A stretch of 64,000 nt of DNA, taken from the NCBI RefSeq assembly GCF_000473205.1, contig NZ_KI421507.1:2223302-2287301 (forward strand). The letters run 5' to 3'. Origin of the DNA: Pseudophaeobacter arcticus DSM 23566 (GTDB taxonomy: Bacteria; Pseudomonadota; Alphaproteobacteria; Rhodobacterales; Rhodobacteraceae). The position numbers and the translations under genes are program-made. Shown piece by piece: positions 3,487-8,090 of the stretch (the stretch's first letter is position 1; every line of letters starts with the position of its first letter). Below the pieces are notes generated by a model. It saw only the letters and a list, made by a program, of their open reading frames with translations. It was not told the DNA's origin and searched no databases.

Positions 3487-3764
3487 TCCCCCATCTCCTT
3501 TTGAATGCCAAGGGCTCCGCCCAGTGAATTCAAGCAGACACCTCTCCAGTTGATAAGCTGAACGGGAGCGGACATTCAGACAAGTACGCTGTAGGTCAGG
3601 TTTGTCCGCCTAGCAGACTGTGGCTTTAGTCCCGCTGTTTGTCTGCTCTTCGATCTTTCGATGCATACCGGTCAAAAGCGCGTTGCCCTCTCTGCATGAC
3701 CCAAAGGACGCCATAGAGGTAACAAATGGACCTGTCACGCTTTTGTGCCGCCCCAAGTGCTCGT

Positions 3765-4748
3765 TTAGGCCACTTTCCGTTCGAAGGCGACCGGGCTTTT
3801 CCAGCCCAGTGCTGAATGGCGTCGGCGTGGATTGTAGAAGCCATTGATGTATTCGAAGATGGCCATCTCAGCCTGCCTGCGCGTTTCCCATGACCGCCGC
3901 CAGATCAGCTCAGCTTTGATGGTTTTGAAGAACGTCTCAACGGCGGCGTTGTCGTAGCAGTTGCCCTTCCCAGACATCGACACCTTGAACCCATGCTGTC
4001 GCAGGATCTTCTGATAGTCGTGTGAACAATATTGCGACCCACGATCCGTGTGATGAATGCAGTCCTTGGGCGGTTGCCGGAACGCGATGGCCATCTTCAA
4101 CGCTCGGATCGCCAGATCACGTTTCATCCGATTGCTCACCGCCCAGCCGATCACACGCCTTGAATGAAGGTCCAGGAATGAGGAGGAACAGAAAACGGTC
4201 CGGGGGACCGTTTTCCCGACGAATGCCAGATAAAGCCAACCCTCGCGTGTCCAGACATAGCTGATGTCCATTGCCCGGCAGGGTATTTCCGTAGGAAATG
4301 TCCCGAGAGGGGCCGCCCATTTCTGGTTGGGCGCATCAGCGTTGAAGTCTCGATCCAGCAGGTTCGGCGCAATATTGAACTTGTGATCGCTATCGGTCGT
4401 CACCTTGTGTTTGCGGGTTCTGGCCACTGATATGCCGTTCTGACGCATCAGCCTGCCTACGCGGCGGTGCCCCACGTCCAAGCCGATCTCTTTCAGCTCT
4501 TCCGTCATTCGCGGCCTGCCATAGCTGCCCAAACTAAGACGGGATTGTTCTTTGATATGGGCCAACGTGATCAAATCAGACCGCTGTCTGCGGCTGGCTG
4601 GACGGCTGCGGAACGCACGCAAACCACGTGAACTGACGCCAACAACCTCGCACAACCGATTGGCTGGAAAGCTGGACCTATGTTCTTCGACAAACCTAAA
4701 TCTCATTGCTTTAGGCCCGCGAAGAACTGGGTGGCCTTCATCGGGCAA
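3765..4748 (-). CDS. IS3-family transposase OrfB with two extra in-frame segments
   Basis: The reading frame encodes the IS3 OrfB integrase core: HTH_21-like region (GSYGRPRMTEELKEIGLDVGHRRVGRLMR), then DISYVWTREGWLYL with the first catalytic Asp, HHTDRGSQYCS with the second, and NAAVETFFKTIKAEL with the catalytic Glu. Compared with the usual family text NQKWAGDISY...YLAVILDLHSRR, it carries about 15 extra residues directly before the first catalytic Asp and about 14 between YLA and LDLHSRR. Each extra segment is encoded by a short palindrome-bearing insert that keeps frame. Normally OrfB is made by frameshifting from orfA, which is broken here, so function is doubtful. Confidence 0.8.
   Translation of the reverse strand: MPDEGHPVLRGPKAMRFRFVEEHRSSFPANRLCEVVGVSSRGLRAFRSRPASRRQRSDLITLAHIKEQSRLSLGSYGRPRMTEELKEIGLDVGHRRVGRLMRQNGISVARTRKHKVTTDSDHKFNIAPNLLDRDFNADAPNQKWAAPLGTFPTEIPCRAMDISYVWTREGWLYLAFVGKTVPRTVFCSSSFLDLHSRRVIGWAVSNRMKRDLAIRALKMAIAFRQPPKDCIHHTDRGSQYCSHDYQKILRQHGFKVSMSGKGNCYDNAAVETFFKTIKAELIWRRSWETRRQAEMAIFEYINGFYNPRRRHSALGWKSPVAFERKVA
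4177..4221. repeat. short palindromic insert 1 inside orfB
   Basis: Core at 4192-4214: arms AAAACGGTCC and GGACCGTTTT around a GGG centre. Flanks read gaggaaCAG on the left and CCCGACGAATG on the right. Removal restores the normal transposase spacing between YLA and LDLHSRR. Confidence 0.75.
4267..4313. repeat. short palindromic insert 2 inside orfB
   Basis: Core at 4285-4299: ATTTCC-GTA-GGAAAT, with outer GGG/CCC pairs. Flanks are CCCGGCAG and CCCGAGAGG, similar in layout to the other two inserts but with different arm sequence. It lies just before the codon of the first catalytic Asp of orfB. Confidence 0.7.
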
Positions 4749-4781
4749 ATGATCCCCCGGATCATTTCCTGATCCTCTTCA
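4739..4781. repeat. short palindromic insert 3 at the orfA/orfB junction
   Basis: Core at 4747-4767: AAATGATCC-CCC-GGATCATTT. On the minus strand its flanks are gaagaggatCAG and GCCCGATGAAGG, matching those of insert 1. It interrupts the run of A where orfA and orfB normally meet by frameshifting. Confidence 0.75.
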
Positions 4782-5021
4782 GTTTAGGATATCCCACTCC
4801 TCCTTGAGAAGCCGGATCTCGCGTCGAAGCCGCTCATTCTCTTTGGCGAGATCTAAATCTTCTTTCGACACCACGTCAGTATCTCGATGCGCGGTGATCC
4901 ATTTGTTCAGCGTCTACATGCCGACACCCAGATCGTCAGCCACCTGCTTGCGCGTAAGCCCACTTGTCAGCGCGATACGCACCGCATCAGCGCGGAATTC
5001 GTCCGTCCGTTTCAGTCCCAT
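4779..5021 (-). pseudogene. IS3-family orfA, broken by nonsense and palindromic insert
   Basis: Reading from ATG at 5021 (preceded by AGGAG) gives the typical OrfA helix-turn-helix MGLKRTDEFRADAVRIAL...LTRKQVADDLGVGM, then codon 36 is TAG (4914-4916) where the family has a serine codon (GMSTLNKW). After it the frame continues with the leucine-zipper end (ENERLRREIRLLKEEWDIL) and is cut at 4779-4781 by an insert. The expected ending KKATQFFA is found beyond the insert at about 4705-4738. Two separate lesions show that this copy is dead. Confidence 0.85.
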
Positions 5022-5193
5022 AGTTCGTCTCCTTTGTTGCAGGAAATGCTATCAAAGGAGCGGCATCAAACCGTGACAGGTCCACTGGGTTTCAACAAGC
5101 GTGGCCTTCTCGGCTCCAGTACTGGAGACGCAACGCGAACACCCCCGCCGGAGCGAGGTGTAAGTTATTGAATTTGTTCATTTATGATAATAT

Positions 5194-5240
5194 TGGTTGC
5201 GGGAGTAGGATTTGAACCTACGACCTTCAGGTTATGAGCC
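5194..5240 (-). other. 3' fragment of initiator tRNA-Met gene (attachment-site remnant)
   Basis: Read on the minus strand this is the 3' part of the initiator tRNA: anticodon loop CTCATAA, stem CCTGA, the T arm GTAGG-TTCAAAT-CCTAC, and the acceptor end CCCGCAACCA with encoded CCA. The 5' half of the tRNA is absent: at 5241 the pairing partner of the anticodon stem changes from the expected TCAGG to TGAGG and similarity stops. Such 47-base tRNA 3' ends are the standard attachment identity of tyrosine-integrase islands, and an integrase follows 180 bases on. The integrated element should lie to the right. Confidence 0.85.
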
Positions 5241-5356
5241 TCACAGGCGTGATATTGCTATAGTTTACTGAACATATTTCTTTGTATATTTATCAATATA
5301 TTACACCCATACAAACTAAACCACTCACACCCGTATATTGTTCAAATTTGCTCGTC

Positions 5357-5400
5357 AGTGTAGCACTGGTGTAGCACCAATAGTATTTCGTAGCACCAAG
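5357..5400. repeat. TAGCAC direct repeats upstream of integrase
   Basis: Three copies of a GTAGCACY motif occur in 44 bases (GTGTAGCACTG, GTGTAGCACCAA, CGTAGCACCAAG) between the attachment fragment and the integrase start. The location fits arm-type integrase binding sites; this is inferred from position and repetition only. Confidence 0.5.
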
Positions 5401-5418
5401 ACATTTCAGGGGAACAGC

Positions 5419-6570
5419 GTGGCCAGCCATCGTTTGAACTTTACCAAAGCCGCACTCTTAAAGGCCGCAGCCGCCAGGAAGGGCGCGCGGGACTATTACT
5501 ATGATGAACGTGAAGCGGGGCTAATGATGGCCGTAACCGCTGCGGGATCAAAGAGCTTTTACCTCTACAAACGAATTGAGGGCCGCCCGGAACGCCTGCT
5601 CTTGGGCAAGTTCCCCGACATGACCGTAGAGCAAGCCCGCAAAGCTGCCGCCAAGGCCAAAGGCGGCATCGCCGCCGGAGCGAACCCGCAAAAAGACAAG
5701 AAGGCCATTCGAGACGAGATGACGTTTGGCGCACTCTTCGGCGAATACATGGACAAATACTCCAAGGTTCACAAAAAATCGTGGAAATACGATGAGCGCG
5801 AAGTGAACAAGTATCTGTCGCACTGGTTCCGCCGTAAAATCTCCAGCATTGACCGGGCCGAGGTCGAACGGCTGCATGCCAAGACCGGCAAGGAAAACGG
5901 CATCTATCAGGCCAATCGCCTGCTTGAACGCATTCGTTCCATTTTCAACAAAGGGATCGAATGGGGTTGGAAGGGCGTAAACCCGGCAACCGGGATCAAG
6001 AAATTCCGCGAACAGAGCCGCGACAGGTTCCTGCAACCGGACGAGCTGCCCCGCTTTTTTGAAGCCCTGGCGAATGAACCAAATGAGGCCGCGCGGGATT
6101 TCTTTATGATCTCCCTGCTGACCGGGGCGCGCAAATCAAACACCCTGGCGATGATGTGGAAAGATATCAGTTTTGAAGCCGCAACCTGGCGCATTGAGGA
6201 AACCAAAAACGCTGACCCGCTGACAGTCCACCTGCCCCAGCAAGCCGTTGAATTGCTAATTGAGCGCAAGCTGAAATCAGACAGCCCCTATGTATTTGCT
6301 GGCTCCGGCAAGAGCGGCCACCTGGCCGACCCCAAGAAAGCCTGGACGCGCATTTTGGCAGAGGCAGGCATTGAAAACCTGCGCATACACGACCTGCGCC
6401 GCACCCTTGGCAGCTATCAGGCAGCGACGGGGGCCAATGGCTATATCATCGGAAAATCGCTGGGCCACCGTTCGCAGCAATCGACCGCAATCTATGCCAG
6501 GCTAAACCTGGACCCGGTCCGTGAAAGCGTAGACAAGGCAACTGAGCTGATGTTCTCGAAGACGCGGTAG
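5419..6570 (+). CDS. tyrosine-type site-specific integrase (P4-like)
   Basis: With the GTG start at 5419 (GGGGA upstream) the protein has 383 residues. A TTG at 5338 would add 27 residues without family similarity. The N-terminal DUF4102 arm-binding domain (YYYDEREAGLMMAVTAAGSKSFYLYKRIEGRPERLLLGKFP) is followed by a core-binding SAM-like domain and the catalytic domain with TGARKSN (Arg), HDLRRTLGS (His-x-x-Arg), LGHRS (His) and the tyrosine in AIYARL. This family integrates islands into tRNA 3' ends, and the adjacent initiator-tRNA fragment is its likely target. The gene reads away from that site and appears intact. Confidence 0.93.
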   Translation: MASHRLNFTKAALLKAAAARKGARDYYYDEREAGLMMAVTAAGSKSFYLYKRIEGRPERLLLGKFPDMTVEQARKAAAKAKGGIAAGANPQKDKKAIRDEMTFGALFGEYMDKYSKVHKKSWKYDEREVNKYLSHWFRRKISSIDRAEVERLHAKTGKENGIYQANRLLERIRSIFNKGIEWGWKGVNPATGIKKFREQSRDRFLQPDELPRFFEALANEPNEAARDFFMISLLTGARKSNTLAMMWKDISFEAATWRIEETKNADPLTVHLPQQAVELLIERKLKSDSPYVFAGSGKSGHLADPKKAWTRILAEAGIENLRIHDLRRTLGSYQAATGANGYIIGKSLGHRSQQSTAIYARLNLDPVRESVDKATELMFSKTR

Positions 6571-6920: not shown

Positions 6921-8090
6921 GTCTTCCACGCCTGACGCAAGATTCCCAAGTATGCTCAGTTGTGGCATGGTCGGCGGATGAGACGCTCCGACATCTGCCT
7001 TTACCTTGGCCCCGCCGACCGCACCGAGCTGCAAGCCCTGATCGCCAACCGCAACACGCCGCGCAAGCTCGTCTGGCGGGCCGAGATCGTGCTGGCCACG
7101 GCCGATGGGAGTGGCACCACCGAGATCATGCGGCAGACGGGCATGTCGAAGCCGACGGTCTGGCGCTGGCAGGAGCGGTATCTCGATGAGGGCGTGGCGG
7201 GGCTCAAGCGGGACAAGACGCGGCCCTCTCGGGTGCCGCCGTTGCCTCGGGAGGTCCGGCTGAAGGTGATCGCGAAGACCGTGCAGGAGGCCCCGCCCAA
7301 TGCCACGCACTGGAGCCGCGCGTCGATGGCAGAGGCGGTGGGAATTTCGGCTTCGAGCGTGGGGCGCATCTGGGCCGATGCCGGGCTGAAGCCGCATATC
7401 GTGAAGGGCTTCAAGGTCTCGAACGACCCGATGTTCGAGGAGAAGGTCACCGAGATCGTCGGCCTCTACCTCGACCCGCCGGACCGCGCGGTCGTGCTCT
7501 GCGTCGACGAGAAGTCCCAGATCCAGGCGCTCGACCGGACCCAGCCGGGGCTGCCGCTCAAGAAGGGACGCGCTGCCACGATGACCCACGACTACAAGCG
7601 CCACGGCACCACCACGCTCTTCGCCGCGCTGGACGTGAAGTCGGGCCTGGTCATCGGAGAATGCATGCCGCGCCACCGCGCCAGGGAGTTCCTGAGTTTC
7701 CTCCGCCGTATCGACCGGGCGGTGAAGAAGCCCCGCGACATCCATCTCGTGCTCGACAACTACGCCACCCACAAGACGCCCGAGGTGCAGGCCTGGCTGG
7801 AGAAGCATCCCCGCTTCAAGCTGCATTTCACGCCCACAAGCGCGTCCTGGATGAACCTCGTCGAGCGCTTCTTCGCCGAGATCACCGCCAAGCGCATCCG
7901 CCGCGGCAGCTACTCCAGCGTCGACGACCTCGAGGACGCAATCTACGATTACCTGCTGCAGCACAACGCCAAGCCGAAGCCCTTCGTCTGGAGCAAGACC
8001 GCCGAAGACATCCTCGCCCGGGAGCGGCGCGCACTCGACGCGCTCGACCTTATCAGAGGAAATCGGTAGCAAATGTCAGACTCGGAACAC
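6921..8090 (+). mobile_element. IS630-family insertion sequence, copy 1
   Basis: A 1170-bp element inside a CTAG target (TA at 6919-6920 and 8091-8092), the target preference of IS630. The ends are imperfect inverted repeats (GTCTTCCACGCCTGAC against the complement of GTCAGACTCGGAACAC). It carries one transposase gene and is identical in coding sequence to the copy at 9815-10984. Confidence 0.92.
6978..8069 (+). CDS. IS630-family transposase (copy 1)
   Basis: A transposase of 363 residues from ATG 6978 (a TTG at 6960 would add six). An N-terminal helix-turn-helix (TTEIMRQTGMSKPTVWRWQERYLDEG) precedes the DDE domain of the Tc1/mariner-IS630 type: LCVDEKSQIQALDRTQPG (first Asp), HLVLDNYATHK (second Asp) and SWMNLVERFFAEI (Glu). 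All catalytic residues are present, so it should be active. A long open frame on the opposite strand is a codon-bias shadow. The gene product is identical to copy 2. Confidence 0.95.
   Translation: MRRSDICLYLGPADRTELQALIANRNTPRKLVWRAEIVLATADGSGTTEIMRQTGMSKPTVWRWQERYLDEGVAGLKRDKTRPSRVPPLPREVRLKVIAKTVQEAPPNATHWSRASMAEAVGISASSVGRIWADAGLKPHIVKGFKVSNDPMFEEKVTEIVGLYLDPPDRAVVLCVDEKSQIQALDRTQPGLPLKKGRAATMTHDYKRHGTTTLFAALDVKSGLVIGECMPRHRAREFLSFLRRIDRAVKKPRDIHLVLDNYATHKTPEVQAWLEKHPRFKLHFTPTSASWMNLVERFFAEITAKRIRRGSYSSVDDLEDAIYDYLLQHNAKPKPFVWSKTAEDILARERRALDALDLIRGNR

Follow-up and report, generated by a model that had tools for sequence, protein, structure and literature searches.

The window, by which we mean the whole stretch of 64,000 nucleotides analysed in Pseudophaeobacter arcticus DSM 23566, contains an IS3-family element with two frames, orfA and orfB. 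This single copy carries three hairpin inserts, here designated I1, I2 and I3 (Table 1), with the arms AAAACGGTCC, ATTTCC and AAATGATCC already described in the earlier note. Once the inserts are omitted, orfB is free of stops and frameshifts; the window copy is nevertheless probably inactive, given the premature TAG in orfA.

Table 1. The IS3-family element of the window and its inserts (positions of the window).
Feature	Positions	Strand	Basis and remarks
IS3-family element, TIR to TIR	3727..5084	-	ends by eye and by aligning six copies
orfB transposase open frame, containing I2 and I3	3765..4748	-	ORF list
I3, family A	about 4178..4223	+ (antisense to transposase)	model R1, 74.3 bits; ends uncertain by a few bases
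I2, family B	4269..4311	+ (antisense to transposase)	model R2, 67.2 bits
I1, family A, at the orfA/orfB junction	about 4737..4782	- (sense)	model R1, 66.4 bits
Premature TAG in orfA	4914..4916	-	one orfA stop counted; place by eye

In the window, the only other model matches up to an E-value of 0.1 are I3 on the reverse strand (21.3 bits) and one match of 15.0 bits. A second transposase-like ORF, which by eye we take to be of the IS630 type, occupies positions 6960-8069 and carries no family A or B element. Positions 5200-6570 hold what we presume, on the same grounds, to be an integrase-like ORF beside a tRNA-like stretch, and this region is perhaps the edge of an integrated element.

The P. 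arcticus genome contains five more full copies of this IS3, four of which (L010-L013) are nearly identical to one another and 79% identical to the window copy; the fifth (L014), on another contig, is 77% identical to the window copy. Among the six copies, I1 and I3 are confined to that of the window, I3 being missing from the five others, and I2 is otherwise found only in L010-L013, so that L014 carries no insert. In the alignment of 29 relatives the I1 site is filled in three (L027, L028 and L123), the I3 site in one (L023, by a different hairpin) and the I2 site in one (L010), a few rows leaving one or other site uncovered. The sites being empty in L014 and in most of the relatives, the three hairpins are insertions, as had been claimed. 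I1 adds 43 nt and introduces a TGA. I2 and I3 each add 42 nt in frame, that is 14 residues rather than the 15 or so announced for these two inserts. The ends of I2 were defined through the clean junctions of family B at other sites; judged by eye, a clean insertion would have been one base longer, and it is this missing base that brings I2 into frame. It stands directly before the codon at 4266-4268, which by eye and from its motif we take to be that of the first catalytic Asp, in agreement with the earlier note. Folded as single-stranded DNA, I3, I2 and I1 give z values of -3.29, -2.21 and -2.15, and 0, 5 and 8 of 200 dinucleotide shuffles, respectively, fold as well.

The relatedness of the three inserts, also put forward in that note, holds for I1 and I3, which form one family (A), and not for I2, which belongs to another (B). 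Family A is laid out as TGAGGAGGATCAG, arm, loop mostly of three bases, arm and CCCGACGAA, with inner arms of 10 bases around the three-base loop; family B consists of CAYTGCCCGGCAG, the arms and GAGAGGG. In 16 family A sequences the inner helix is paired at 95.6% and the outer helix at 65%. Two-sided changes affect 6 of the 15 pairs, against a mean of 2.2 in shuffles, none of which (0/500) reaches this number, and the signal vanishes in slid controls. At two pairs of the outer helix, 14 of the 16 sequences have a tandem G.A and two have GC/CG; by eye, L123 has CC/GG there. In 12 family B sequences we counted 16 two-sided cells (shuffle mean 6.9, 0/500 as high), distributed over 5 pairs, a number of pairs that 167 of 500 shuffles also reach; both structures were drawn from the sequences on which they were then tested, which favours them. 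By eye, further B copies in IS genes have arms that differ wholly from one copy to another and still pair. It is thus the hairpin rather than the sequence of its arms that is conserved, the arms changing on both sides together, as the note had proposed. One site points to change in place: where orfA meets orfB, an unusual variant of the flanks (CTGAAGAGG ... ATGAAGG) recurs in the window copy, L028 and L170, and encloses different paired arms in each. The simple reading would be one old insertion of which both arms have been rewritten; a replacement by conversion would be an alternative.

Other hairpins were met in the course of this comparison. A third family (C), with an outer GCGCC/GGCGC stem, occurs in L027 (356-415), L146 (2205-2262), L032 and L170; in L027 and L170 it lies near what we take to be the catalytic Glu codon of IS3 transposases. 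In a fourth type (D; L023, L129 and L133), variable arms surround a constant CCATTGGTCCGAG, and it is this type that occupies the I3 site in L023. L169, L173, L175, L176 and L177 hold weaker relatives of family A with G-rich and C-rich outer ends, two of them close together in L169, L173 and L176; this group is perhaps an intergenic form of family A. A role of the sense family A copies as a frameshift signal was considered and rejected, the phase of the +43 shift differing by eye between L129 and L140.

The two main families are dispersed well beyond the IS3 of the window. The whole IS, used as a DNA query, found matches in 60 of 146 relatives, many of them short, limited to the inserts and situated elsewhere in genomes of the same family. 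The twenty of these stretches that were retrieved fall mainly into families A and B. A first, narrow pattern had retrieved no more than I1 and I3 plus one additional place. Of 120 genomes, the covariance models detected family A in 41 (all but one from the same bacterial family, 40 in number) and family B in 32, all of that family (E <= 0.01). In the P. arcticus genome, model A gives four matches, namely I1, I3 and two weak ones at 26.6 bits. Model B gives twelve; the eleven listed comprise the five I2 copies in the IS, two matches on one contig (C1) and four of 39.4 bits. Two P. arcticus stretches (L272 and L273) are identical over 2461 bases, each with a family B-like hairpin of 39.4 bits, and the ORFs tried there gave no Pfam match. 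The dispersed palindromes that the earlier note suggested looking for with covariance models thus exist, with copies elsewhere in the genome and in Rhodobacteraceae, and relatives of the IS often lack the inserts, so that neither of the two observations named in that note as refuting its claim was made. In Rfam nothing matches at the gathering score, and up to E = 1 the single match is BASRCI153, at 18 bits against 137.

An exact family B 41-mer was found at 15 places in 11 of 394 genomes of the same bacterial family; in the rows of this search the reversed 41-mer, used as a control, has no match. The flanks of the 15 places are of 11 kinds and therefore represent 11 different sites. The 41-mer is also present in 16 plasmid records, all of Rhodobacterales genera by name. 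Furthermore, the insertion of family B can be read against an empty site. Plasmids of Phaeobacter inhibens carry a family B element of 41 nt within an IS5 transposase, uninterrupted ISPko1-type copies of Paracoccus are about 94% identical to this IS5, and the comparison of the two reveals a clean insertion with no duplicated bases. A second IS5 group provides more clean B sites, including one in Dinoroseobacter shibae. An insert-free P. inhibens IS5 was not found among the 60 matches listed, 40 of them from P. inhibens; 39 of these 40, of which three were fetched, cover the full query with its insert, and the remaining one (H82) is a more distant copy that covers 77%. The family A junctions are not clean, a few target bases being missing or changed, and its 42-base pattern occurs at six places in 3 of 256 genomes. 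Among these 256 genomes no identical family A copies were found at different sites, the three identical ones sharing one IS site. Judged from such sequence comparisons, the mobility of family B is well supported and that of family A likely.

The base that precedes the 41-mer is C at 10 of the 11 sites and T at one (that this C belongs to the target was checked by eye at three sites only, by comparison with the empty form); the base that follows is G at eight sites and A at three. C before the element and a purine after it are thus combined at 10 of 11 sites (p = 1e-7), the background frequency in a single IS5 reference being 0.159. By eye, insertions near catalytic codons are conspicuous: near the first Asp in I2, L200, L212, L244, L199 and L259, near the second Asp in L161, and near the Glu in L028, L157 and L210. 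At least part of this apparent clustering follows from the preference for C|purine, of which ATC|GAC is an example.

What kind of gene receives these elements? In 94 distinct contexts, ORFs that span the element were selected by their length and base composition; of the 40 scanned, 21 gave a Pfam match, which in 19 cases was to a transposase family (IS3, IS5, IS256, IS21 and IS1182 types, as we assign them). The other two matches are to RelE (L190) and, in a frame that runs antisense to an IS5 gene, to a beta-helix (L189). A second scan dealt with twenty further ORFs at or beside 14 elements that the first had left unresolved. A transposase ORF overlaps the element in L139 and lies within about 250 bases of it in L145, L171 (under the cut-off), L183 and L186; the L135 element is intergenic, between EngA-like and RlmN-like genes, that of L193 lies in a peptidase gene neighbourhood, and the others of the 14 gave no host assignment. 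The two B copies of contig C1 flank a broken transposase gene, whose left piece matches PF13610 (DDE_Tnp_IS240, 5.8e-13) and whose right flank has no Pfam match. Among 92 IS3 copies, 23 have insertions of at least 18 nt, nearly all of them such hairpins by eye, the exceptions being those of L045, L048 and L118. Most of the identified hosts, then, are not conserved cellular genes but code for transposases or IS recombinases, and they come from IS families that are unrelated.

We consider it fairly probable that the inserts are non-autonomous mobile palindromes, mostly of 36-45 nt, with conserved flanks and paired free arms, and that in this bacterial family they usually reside in transposase genes. 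Mobile repeats without any preference would produce a similar picture if they inserted anywhere and were purged from useful genes, IS being damage-tolerant, multicopy and able to travel between species. IS carriers do multiply, and a C before a purine is a common target, not special to transposases. However, when each site is counted once, 10 of the 11 sites of the 41-mer still lie inside genes for transposases or IS integrases: an integrase next to a transposase of the IS91 type (L249), IS3-like genes (L250, L252, L255, where the match starts at the element edge, and L258), an IS21-like gene (L253), IS5-like genes (L254, L259, and L257 with L261-L263) and a gene with a weak rve match under the cut-off (L256); no host gene could be placed at the eleventh (L251 with L260). 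Neutral intergenic DNA is expected to be a larger refuge for repeats devoid of preference, and we regard their accumulation by purging as unlikely. At the other extreme stands a dedicated system that would place structure-recognised palindromes into transposase genes by means of a recombinase reading the hairpin and not the sequence. It would make of them either a hyperparasite hunting IS or a means by which the host disables these, and we consider it decidedly unlikely.

The reading frame bears on what such an insertion does to its host. IS3 and IS5 copies were aligned to uninterrupted references, an event being defined by its site and net length. Five events were dropped before the count (IS3 207/25, 207/31, 230/30 and 385/53, the last a split alignment of a real 38-nt insert; IS5 145/20), leaving 32 distinct events with net lengths of 36-57 nt, mostly 36-45. 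Their lengths are multiples of three in 13 of the 32, which is what one third would give (p = 0.45), and the inserts are found in both orientations and in different codon phases. That the elements are coding palindromes comparable to those of Rickettsia, read in frame and adding residues tolerated by the host protein, agrees with I2 and I3, with the otherwise open frames of L010, L011 and L013, which carry I2 (L012, identical, was left out), and with a 39-nt B insert within the annotated transposase of L212. The count over all events and the genome G024 speak against it, and we hold it to be very unlikely. Indeed, in G024, a genome in two contigs, one IS3 is present in six full copies, each at a place of its own, and all six carry the same set of four B inserts (38, 40, 38 and 38 nt), none of them a multiple of three in length; no insert-free copy of this IS3 was found in that genome.

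Full frames are restored in all six G024 copies by omitting the inserts, and one of these copies has lost its orfA start. Variable codons comprise 1 synonymous and 7 non-synonymous in orfA, and 2 and 5 in orfB; the total of 12 non-synonymous to 3 synonymous is to be set against a neutral expectation of 0.72-0.73 non-synonymous, with the reservation that the numbers are small and that young IS copies may look neutral anyway. More generally, 14 carriers of frame-breaking inserts, eight of them outside G024, have otherwise undamaged frames. Apart from the inserts, frames are without damage in 19 of 28 carriers and in 56 of 72 insert-free copies, uncovered stretches being scored as undamaged and the copies not being a random sample, some loci having been fetched for their elements and others through a protein search that favours uninterrupted genes. 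Such clean frames would be expected if the transposase were made all the same, the inserts being excised from the mRNA, bypassed in translation or eliminated from the DNA; we likewise hold this to be very unlikely, since both orientations and different phases argue against an RNA mechanism, the G024 codon changes are neutral-like and insert-free copies are equally clean. Movement in trans explains the G024 copies no less well than a skipping of the inserts.

In the model we favour, that of non-autonomous mobile palindromes settled in transposase genes, an enzyme supplied in trans would recognise the folded hairpin, probably as single-stranded DNA, and would join it to a short target. Such a recognition of the hairpin, together with the joining to a short target, would explain both the free arms and the missing target duplication. 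Most insertions would break the transposase, and the crippled IS would still be moved in trans by another copy, thereby carrying its passengers along. Only in a minority of cases, those in frame such as I2 in L010-L013, might the protein still work.

Mobile elements identified by their fold rather than by their sequence are rare. How short palindromes can move when no transposase is known for them is not settled in PMC3733652. The many sites of identical copies, the clean empty sites and the named plasmid carriers (Phaeobacter inhibens, Dinoroseobacter shibae) make insertion, target choice and the preference for transposase genes testable, and intact and interrupted IS copies occur in culturable bacteria. 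Furthermore, these elements disturb annotation by splitting or lengthening transposase genes.

Our search of the literature covered open-licence papers, subscription papers lying mostly outside it, and we recognised in it no report describing these elements; the words palindrome and hairpin are absent from the accessible part of the Paracoccus mobilome paper (PMC3281130). The palindromic elements of Rickettsia (RPE) measure 105-146 bp and are read in frame within conserved cellular genes (PMC2229807). The present inserts resemble the RPE-1 type as palindromes lying within coding genes, some of them in frame, but they are mostly of 36-45 nt and keep the frame only at the chance rate. The likeness to Rickettsia drawn in the earlier note thus stands for small, dispersed palindromes whose pairing is kept; it fails for coding inserts read in frame, as judged by the frame count, the two orientations, the transposase hosts and the length. 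The byps of a yeast mitochondrion are short hairpin inserts within coding genes that are bypassed by the ribosome, whereas the elements described here occur in both orientations and in several phases. In REP/RAYT and IS200/IS605-derived elements, a hairpin is recognised in single-stranded form and inserted without duplication; family B shares the latter, and the former is proposed for the present elements. Unlike for REP/RAYT, a Y1 transposase (PF01797) was detected neither in the P. arcticus genome nor in 11 of the 12 genomes of the genus searched, one of the 12 containing it.

The CGTC-tagged REPs of Alphaproteobacteria, among them RPE-4 and RPE-6, have no known dedicated transposase and some lie inside genes; in the consulted excerpts they are mostly intergenic, are not associated with transposase genes, and have stems of 8-9 bp starting with A-T pairs and loops of 4-5 (PMC3733652). 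As described there, they are short alphaproteobacterial palindromes like ours, some of them in genes, and by eye several family A copies, read antisense, have CGTC before the hairpin, although this tag varies and family B does not have it. The stems here start otherwise, the loops are mostly of three bases and the hosts are transposases. The pneumococcal RUP is a MITE moved by IS630-Spn1, with 107 bp, 9-bp terminal repeats and a TA target that is duplicated, and more than six IS families have transposase genes that it has entered and thereby inactivated (PMC2229807). Could RUP be a brake on transposases? That question has already been raised (PMC2229807). The elements described here share with it, as far as that account goes, a small size, the non-autonomous state and insertion into transposase genes of several IS families, but they consist of one hairpin of about 36-45 nt with free arms and, in family B, insert without target duplication. 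RUP is the closest precedent that we found.
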